Origin: Armatimonadota bacterium
GTDB taxonomy: Bacteria; Sysuimicrobiota; Sysuimicrobiia; Sysuimicrobiales; Sysuimicrobiaceae
DNA: 64,000 nt
Assembly: GCA_025059775.1 (NCBI GenBank)
Contig: JANXCW010000008.1
Span: 1-64,000, forward strand
Direction: 5' to 3'
Positions 52,206 to 56,324 of the stretch are shown piece by piece. The notes below the pieces were generated by a model. The model saw nothing but the letters and a program-made list of their open reading frames with translations, was not told the DNA's origin and did not search any database. How positions within the stretch are numbered: the stretch's first letter is position 1; each line of letters opens with the position of its first letter. Position numbers and translations under genes: made by a program.

Positions 52206-53566
<1,361 letters not shown>

Positions 53567-53570
<4 letters not shown>

Positions 53571-54349
53571 GCTCCTCCTCCGGCTTTGAAGACCTTATCG
53601 AGGTACCGGACGCCCTCCTCCGTGAGGGTGCGCCGGCCGCCCGCGTGCGATTGGACGAGCCCCATCTCCTCGAGGGCCGCGAGTTCCCGGTACGCGGTGC
53701 TCAGGCTGATATCCAGCTCCCGGGCCACGGTGGTGGGTCCGGCGCTACCGAACTCCGCCACCAGCAACAGCACCCGCCCCTGCCGCTCCGTGAGCCGGGG
53801 CTCGGCCCGCTCCCCAGGCCGAGGAGCGGGCCGGGGGGGGTTCATCTGAAGGGTCACCACCGTCCCGCCGTTGAGGTTGTCCTCGATGGAGATCATTCCG
53901 CCCAGGAAGCTCAACTGCTCCCGGGCGATGGGGAGCCCGCTTCCCACCCCCCGGATGTACTTCCGCATGGTGGCCGTGGCCGTGGTAAACCCGGGCTGCA
54001 TGGCCTTCTCCTTGTCCCGAATGCCCGGGCCCTGGTCCGAGATCCGGATGGTGTTTCCGTCCTCGCTGATGGTGATCACCGCGTTCTTGAAGTGCGCGTG
54101 GATCAGGTTCTCCACGATCTCCCGGATCACCACGAAGGGGATGCGGCTGCCCCGCCGCTGCGCGTGCTCGTAGGTGGCCGCGGCCAGCTTCCCCACGAGT
54201 TCGTGGAAGTCGTCGCTGGAGAGGGAGATCACCCGGGGCTCCGCGAGGGGGGAGTCGTAGATGGCAAGGCGCACCTCCGGAGTCCCCTCGGGCTCTGCCC
54301 TCCCCTCCTGCTCCCGGATGATCTGGTCCAGCAACTCCCGCAGCGACAT
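53567..54349 (-). CDS. GHKL-type ATPase fused to a winged helix, coupled to dnaA
   Basis: Encodes 260 residues from the ATG at 54349. Residues 1-60 are a short helical start (SLRELLDQIIREQEGRAEP) and a beta segment. Residues 70-180 are a histidine-kinase-like ATPase domain with N box IREIVENLIHAHF, G1 DQGPGI, and G2 GVGSGLPIAREQLSFLGG, ending NGGTVVTLQM. The C-terminal 70 residues form a winged helix (LTERQGRVLLLVAEFGSAGPTTVARELDISLSTAYRELAALEEMGLVQ). No phospho-acceptor His domain is visible, so it is not a classic sensor kinase. Its stop overlaps the dnaA start. A role in controlling dnaA or the origin is inferred from this coupling only. Confidence 0.8.
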
Positions 54350-54799
54350 TCCACTCACCCCGATGGCGAGAGGGATCAATTGCACGACCCCTGGCCGATT
54401 CCTCCTCCTCGACCTCCCCGCAGCTCCCTTTCGCCCCTTTCCACCGGGATTCTTCCCTTGTTGGGGAAGGCTCTCAAAAAGGCCTCGAAAACCACGCCAG
54501 GCCGACCCGAAAACGAGGCCTTCCCTTCCCCCACCACCGCCCGTGACCGTAATGGTATCGCGCCTGCCGGAAGTTATCCACAACCCGTGAAAAACCTGTT
54601 GATAATCCTCCTCCCACCGGCCCGCCTCCCCGCTCCCGAGGCGGTTGGGGAGCGGGGGTGGGATCCGTCTGGCCCAAGCCACGGGGTCCGGGCGCCCCGA
54701 AAAGTTGTGGAAAACTGCTGGTTTGTCCACAGGCTGTCCACAGACCGGGGAGTCCGGGGATGCTATACTAGGCGGGGCTCGCGTGGGGTGAGGGGAGGC
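54350..54799. other. oriC: Probable replication origin oriC
   Basis: Non-coding region of 450 bases between the two divergent arms. DnaA boxes: TTATCCACA at 54574-54582 (perfect), TGTGGAAAA at 54706-54714 (minus strand), TTGTCCACA at 54723-54731 and CTGTCCACA at 54734-54742. All genes to the left for 10 kb run leftward and those to the right run rightward. No clear AT-rich unwinding element is seen; the moderately AT-rich part is 54580-54612 (GTGAAAAACCTGTTGATAAT). Confidence 0.75.
54764..54769 (+). promoter_or_regulatory. -10 box of the rnpA/rpmH operon
   Basis: TATACT, about 30 bases before the rnpA ATG. The expected -35 position has no good match and is next to two DnaA boxes (54723-54742), so DnaA could influence this promoter. 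Confidence 0.5.
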
Positions 54800-55568: not shown

Positions 55569-56324
55569 GTGTTCGGATGGCTCGTGGCACAGCTCAATCA
55601 TGCCCTTCAGTTCTTCTACGGGATCACGGGCTCTTACGGATGGGCCATCATCCTCCTCACCCTCGCGGTGAAACTGGTCCTCCACCCCCTTACCCGGAAG
55701 CAGCTGCGCTCCATGAAGGAGATGCAGAAGCTCCAGCCCCACATCCAGGCCCTCCAGCGGAAGTACCGAGACGATCCCCAGCGGCTCAACCGGGAGATGA
55801 TGGACCTGTACCGGGCCCATGGGGTGAACCCCTTCGGAGGGTGTCTGCCCATGCTCCTGCAGATGCCCGTGCTGTTCGCCCTGTATCAGGTGCTCAGCAC
55901 TCCCGCTCACTTCGTCTCCCGCACCGGGGAGGTCCTCAAGACCGTCCCCTTTGGGCCCTGGGATCTCCTGGTACACCCCATCACCGTGCTGGCGGATCCC
56001 GGGAAATACGGGATCGCCGCGGCGGTGGCCTACGCCCTCGTGCCCGTGCTCATCGGCGCCAGCACCTACTTCCAGCAGCGGGTTTCCGTGACAGATCCCC
56101 AGCAATCCCGCATGTTCCTGTTCATGCCGTTCCTCATCGGCTACTTCAGCTTGAACTTCCCGGTGGGACTGTCCCTGTACTGGTTCGTGTCCACGGTGGC
56201 GTACGTGGCCGAATACCTGTCCGTGGTGGGGCTTCCGAAGTCCCAAAAAAGACCGCAGGGGGAGGCCCCGGCCGGTGGTCGCCGGAGGCGGAAGAGCGCG
56301 GAAGCGGAGGTCAGGGGAACGTGA
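55569..56324 (+). CDS. yidC: Membrane protein insertase YidC (short form)
   Basis: Encodes 251 residues from a GTG at 55569 behind AGGAGGAG. Five membrane spans; FYGITGSYGWAIILLTLAVKLVLHPLTRKQLRSMKEMQKLQPHIQALQRKY has the conserved Arg in the first span and the C1 hairpin; VNPFGGCLPMLLQMPVLFALYQVL and FSLNFPVGLSLYWFVSTV follow. The large periplasmic domain of proteobacterial YidC is absent, as in Gram-positive SpoIIIJ. No lipobox Cys at the start. Basic C-terminal tail. Overlaps jag by 4 bases. Confidence 0.96.
   Translation: MFGWLVAQLNHALQFFYGITGSYGWAIILLTLAVKLVLHPLTRKQLRSMKEMQKLQPHIQALQRKYRDDPQRLNREMMDLYRAHGVNPFGGCLPMLLQMPVLFALYQVLSTPAHFVSRTGEVLKTVPFGPWDLLVHPITVLADPGKYGIAAAVAYALVPVLIGASTYFQQRVSVTDPQQSRMFLFMPFLIGYFSLNFPVGLSLYWFVSTVAYVAEYLSVVGLPKSQKRPQGEAPAGGRRRRKSAEAEVRGT

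Follow-up and report, generated by a model that had tools for sequence, protein, structure and literature searches.

Known GHKL proteins and regulators of dnaA

CapK, an HTH-STAS-GHKL kinase, is activated by ssDNA and controls an adjacent immune operon, and CapS is a separate STAS-wHTH substrate (PMC13373217). A gene next to dnaA in the window (the whole stretch of 64,000 nucleotides analysed here), for which we use the working label kin, encodes a GHKL ATPase-winged helix protein that resembles CapK/CapS in its GHKL and HTH domains, in its place at the head of an operon, whose control by the kin protein is proposed here, and in a possible link to the state of DNA. Unlike CapK, the kin protein has its GHKL domain before the wHTH domain, lacks a STAS domain and is encoded beside dnaA. 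The SpoIIAB/RsbW anti-sigma kinases share the N-box Glu and the G1 region with the kin protein, but they have no DNA-binding domain, and kin has no adjoining sigma or STAS gene. The N-box E-x3-N is also common to the GyrB/MutL/Hsp90 ATPases, and its residues E77 and N81 are invariant in kin, where they presumably have a catalytic role; however, in these ATPases a transducer (S5-like) domain follows the ATPase domain, whereas kin has a winged helix there. Two-component histidine kinases have HATPase_c in common with kin but carry a HisKA/DHp phospho-acceptor domain, which kin does not. DIP2311 of Corynebacterium diphtheriae, which we take to belong to the COG2865-type family, also has an ATPase-like fold followed by a winged helix, although it is much longer (477-556 residues) and its domains are placed differently. 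Its structure (PDB 3lmm) is the best solved Foldseek match over both kin domains (E 8e-08 to 3e-07, at a low TM-score of 0.4-0.5), followed by many histidine kinases and branched-chain ketoacid dehydrogenase kinase. With winged-helix regulators, the kin protein shares the fold and a conserved recognition helix, and predicted site-specific DNA binding, with a candidate element in the kin leader, may be a further likeness.

SeqA, Fis, IciA/ArgP and QseB are listed as regulators of dnaA expression in PMC8203912. They are comparable to the kin protein if it acts, as we propose, on the origin or the promoter of dnaA, but none of them is described there as a dnaA-operon ATPase-winged helix protein.

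The kin gene and its protein

The window was placed in the CSP1-3/Sysuimicrobiota group, whose MAGs include CSP1-3 itself (L058) and in which one locus has the taxonomy Candidatus Sysuimicrobiota. The genes and domains of the locus are as follows.

52206..53570, minus strand: dnaA (PF00308, E 2.1e-73); its start overlaps the kin stop as ATGA
53567..54349, minus strand: kin, GHKL ATPase-winged helix gene (260 aa, ATG start)
53600..53794, minus strand: winged helix of kin, residues ~186-250, with invariant R221 in the recognition helix
53840..54130, minus strand: GHKL domain of kin, residues 74-170 (Pfam HATPase_c, E 6e-14, above cut-off); N-box E77xxxN81, G1 D105xG107xG109, G2 G134xGxG138, G3 G162-T163

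The preliminary description had read the protein as an ATPase of the histidine-kinase fold that lacks a phospho-acceptor domain and is fused to a DNA-binding domain, and each part of this reading is borne out. HATPase_c covers residues 74-170 with an intact nucleotide site; the C-terminal winged helix matches HTH_IclR above cut-off, with TrmB and HVO_A0261_N just below theirs (Pfam); and no HisKA/DHp family is among the Pfam matches listed for kin or for the 39 members scanned, all of which have HATPase_c. The refined structure model has a mean pLDDT of 89.6. The reading frame is open 5' as far as a TTG at 55597, and the ATG start is supported by an N-terminus, MSLR..., that is common to relatives. 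In 85 kin sequences, P71, E77, N81, H84, A85, D105, G107, G109, G120, G134, G138, G151, R221 and L226 are invariant, covering the GHKL N, G1 and G2 boxes and the recognition-helix Arg. The dN/dS value against a same-genus relative is 0.044, similar to that of dnaA (0.063), and kin is thus a functioning gene; it is a real gene under purifying selection. In several Coriobacteriales members (L114-L131), a long Gln/Pro-rich linker connects the ATPase domain to the winged helix, and the protein reaches 330-440 aa.

Linkage of kin to dnaA

Among 61 relatives, strong kin matches were found throughout the order of the window's genome and in one genome of another lineage (G057), and in members of the order dnaA directly follows kin in every locus with enough contig. 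A contig scan with the single kin protein gave no matches; a profile scan succeeded and yielded 80 loci, among others from CSP1-3, UBP13 (L073), Aquicultor, Oleimmundimicrobium, Coriobacteriia, Atopobium and Olsenella. For loci L071-L131, dnaA lies downstream of kin on the same strand in 58/61, and in the remaining three (L086, L100, L123) the contig stops within ~700 nt of kin. When 340 relatives and domain-wide genomes were sampled, kin matches were confined to the order and three UBP13-type genomes, few candidates being scored per genome, so that weak homologues could be missed.

Sampled Actinomycetota carry a kin match at E <= 1e-15 in 124 of 297 genomes, among them named Olsenella, Atopobium and Aquicultor; the other 173 have none, and therefore DnaA can work without kin. 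Adjacency was checked in the 73 Actinomycetota genomes with coordinates for both genes. They are adjacent on the same strand in 67. Of the other six, three run into a contig end, and in three a single contig opens with dnaA and closes with kin. These last three are the ends of full-length chromosome contigs, and once both situations are allowed for the genes are linked in 73/73. In G266, the contig stops 21 nt past the kin match. Each genome has one strong kin match and no strong paralogue elsewhere.

A phylogenetic check of kin with dnaA had been proposed beforehand, and in more than 100 genomes kin does not lie away from dnaA in most relatives; no clear case of a separate kin was found in three phyla and well over 100 genomes. 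Trees of kin and DnaA from 70 loci have 44/67 splits in common, and 36 of the 40 well-supported kin splits also occur in the DnaA tree, as against at most two shared splits with shuffled labels. The gene is thus linked exclusively to dnaA and co-inherited with it. The gene order rpmH, rnpA, yidC, dnaN, recF in the oriC region is conserved anyway, and linkage alone is therefore no proof of kin function.

The junction with dnaA and the origin region

The preliminary description had also proposed that kin is translationally coupled to dnaA by ATGA. This overlap exists in the window but is not general, as it was found only in G000 and G001, which belong to one genus. Outside this genus the spacing is usually 4-100 nt: gaps of mostly ~9-98 nt separate the genes in other CSP1-3 members, deep Actinomycetota often have 4-40 nt, and Coriobacteriales reach ~300 nt. 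The conserved trait is the operon position of kin, not the ATGA overlap, and to judge by this position kin probably stands first in the dnaA transcript. Upstream of kin, the following elements were located.

54395..54441, minus strand: weak local two-block leader element, GAAAGGGGCGAAAGGG at -92 and GGAGGAATCGG at -56
54449..54477, minus strand: possible kin-dnaA operon promoter, TTGAGA-17-AAGAAT (9/12, consensus match only)
54574-54582, plus strand: oriC DnaA box in the kin-rpmH interval (<=1 mismatch)
54597-54605, minus strand: oriC DnaA box, same interval (<=1 mismatch)
54706-54714, minus strand: oriC DnaA box, same interval (<=1 mismatch)
54723-54731, plus strand: oriC DnaA box, same interval (<=1 mismatch)

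The window contains nine DnaA boxes with at most one mismatch, against 2.56 expected. Their cluster at 54574..54731 places oriC between kin and rpmH, on the side of kin opposite dnaA, and confirms that kin is next to the origin, as had been claimed. The rpmH-kin interval likewise holds DnaA boxes in nearly every CSP1-3 and deep Actinomycetota locus. A recurrent DnaA-box triple, TTTTCCACA-TGTGGAAA-TTGTGGATAA, is found upstream of kin in the origin region of deep Actinomycetota (L074-L090 and similar). Promoter-like matches in the region number 2, against 0.2 expected.

In CSP1-3 kin leaders, the blocks GTGAAA ... GTAGGA stand ~30 nt apart near -85/-52 and score well above shuffles. Other CSP1-3 members show this lineage-specific two-block element more clearly than the genome of the window, where it is weak; the pattern GTGAAA-N20-27-GTAGGA has four matches in nine genomes, three of them at the kin locus. 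The element could serve as an operator, form part of a promoter or act as a signal in the leader. Beyond it, CSP1-3 kin leaders have a conserved AGGA ... CCAAT series at ~-90 to -20, which could be a leader signal.

Most Coriobacteriales loci have a strong palindrome, GAAANNTTTC, upstream of kin, which at first sight resembles an operator. The box-recognition motif of DnaA in this group is altered from GGRDHTTV to GGR/GNR-[ST]HAT[VI] (L101, L103, L104, L106, L108, L111, L118, L124, L125, L131), and canonical DnaA boxes are nearly gone from the same loci. Boxes of the TTTTCNNCA type are enriched on either side of kin and in the dnaA-dnaN spacer, and both GAAANNTTTC and TTTTCNNCA sites are enriched around the Coriobacteriales oriC. 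Because of the changed DnaA motif and this enrichment of TTTTCNNCA boxes near kin and dnaA, we do not assign GAAANNTTTC to the kin protein as its operator; an altered DnaA box is the likelier reading. DnaA and its box have apparently changed together in Coriobacteriales.

Possible functions of the kin protein

We hypothesize, with about even confidence, that the kin protein is an ATP-gated DNA-binding regulator of the dnaA operon, the adjacent origin or both. The GHKL domain would bind ATP and, with E77, may hydrolyse it; the protein is probably dimeric, and its nucleotide state would set the geometry of the C-terminal winged helices. These may bind DNA in the rpmH-kin intergenic region, which holds oriC and presumably the operon promoter, and binding would tune the supply of DnaA or the firing of the origin. 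That the protein dimerises, that ATP gates it, which DNA it targets and in which direction it acts are all inferred. The linkage to dnaA, the single match per genome, co-inheritance, the invariant ATP site and R221, the upstream DnaA boxes, the locus-linked two-block leader and the absence of the partners that define known GHKL kinases favour such a regulator. Against it stand the weakness of the candidate operator in the window and its restriction to one lineage, the likelier reading of the Coriobacteriales palindrome as a DnaA box, the oriC gene order that is conserved anyway and the Actinomycetota genomes without a match.

The kin protein could instead be a SpoIIAB-like Ser/Thr kinase that uses E77 as general base and has DnaA, or some other protein of replication or transcription, as its substrate; the winged helix would then localise the kinase or sense a signal, by analogy with the ssDNA switching of CapK; we consider this unlikely, though it deserves some weight. 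The N-box E-x3-N and G1 region resemble those of SpoIIAB (TIGR01925, E 2.2e-6; PDB 1til/1l0o), but the score of 27.6 bits is far under the 135-bit cut-off. Branched-chain ketoacid dehydrogenase kinase comes first in the kin profile search, and CapK/CapS shows that a GHKL kinase joined to an HTH domain can sense ssDNA and control a neighbouring operon. Kinase activity is conceivable since an invariant N-box Glu is also what a Ser kinase of the SpoIIAB type would have. However, the kin genes have no separate conserved partner gene except dnaA, and in a search of ten carriers no STAS protein was matched in six (G000, G001, G003, G010, G020, G066) and one was present in the four others; hence these six, which include the window's genome, have no SpoIIAA-type partner or CapS-type substrate.

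It is likewise improbable that the kin protein is a regulator with targets elsewhere, for instance in growth or nucleotide stress, which stays near dnaA through the conserved oriC gene order. The neighbours yidC, dnaN and recF are conserved though not all of them act in initiation, and the lack of a kin match in 173 of the 297 sampled Actinomycetota would fit a passenger. Yet no kin was seen away from dnaA across three phyla, the two genes are only a few nucleotides apart in many lineages and no strong kin paralogue exists elsewhere. An ordinary histidine-kinase fragment or degenerate kinase, which the HATPase_c fold and the many histidine kinases in the Foldseek output might suggest, is very improbable and largely ruled out by the lack of HisKA/DHp (0/39 members, among the Pfam families listed), the lack of an invariant His outside the N-box or before residue 71 (85 sequences), the invariant ATP site and strong purifying selection.

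Implications for replication control

To our knowledge, how bacteria control initiation and the supply of DnaA is understood in detail for a few model species only. No description of the kin family was found in the open PMC papers searched. The gene occurs in CSP1-3, in UBP13 and in many lineages of Actinomycetota, and other lineages lack it. An ATP-gated regulator of this distribution might be an ancient switch, of an undescribed kind, that ties initiation and the supply of DnaA to the state of nucleotide or ssDNA at the origin, a reading that we put forward tentatively and with more doubt than belief. Carriers of kin include cultivated human-associated Coriobacteriia. A single-copy gene held between oriC and dnaA in three phyla is a strong pointer to overlooked initiation control, and from where it lies we suspect an undescribed regulator that governs either the supply of the replication initiator or the firing of the origin.
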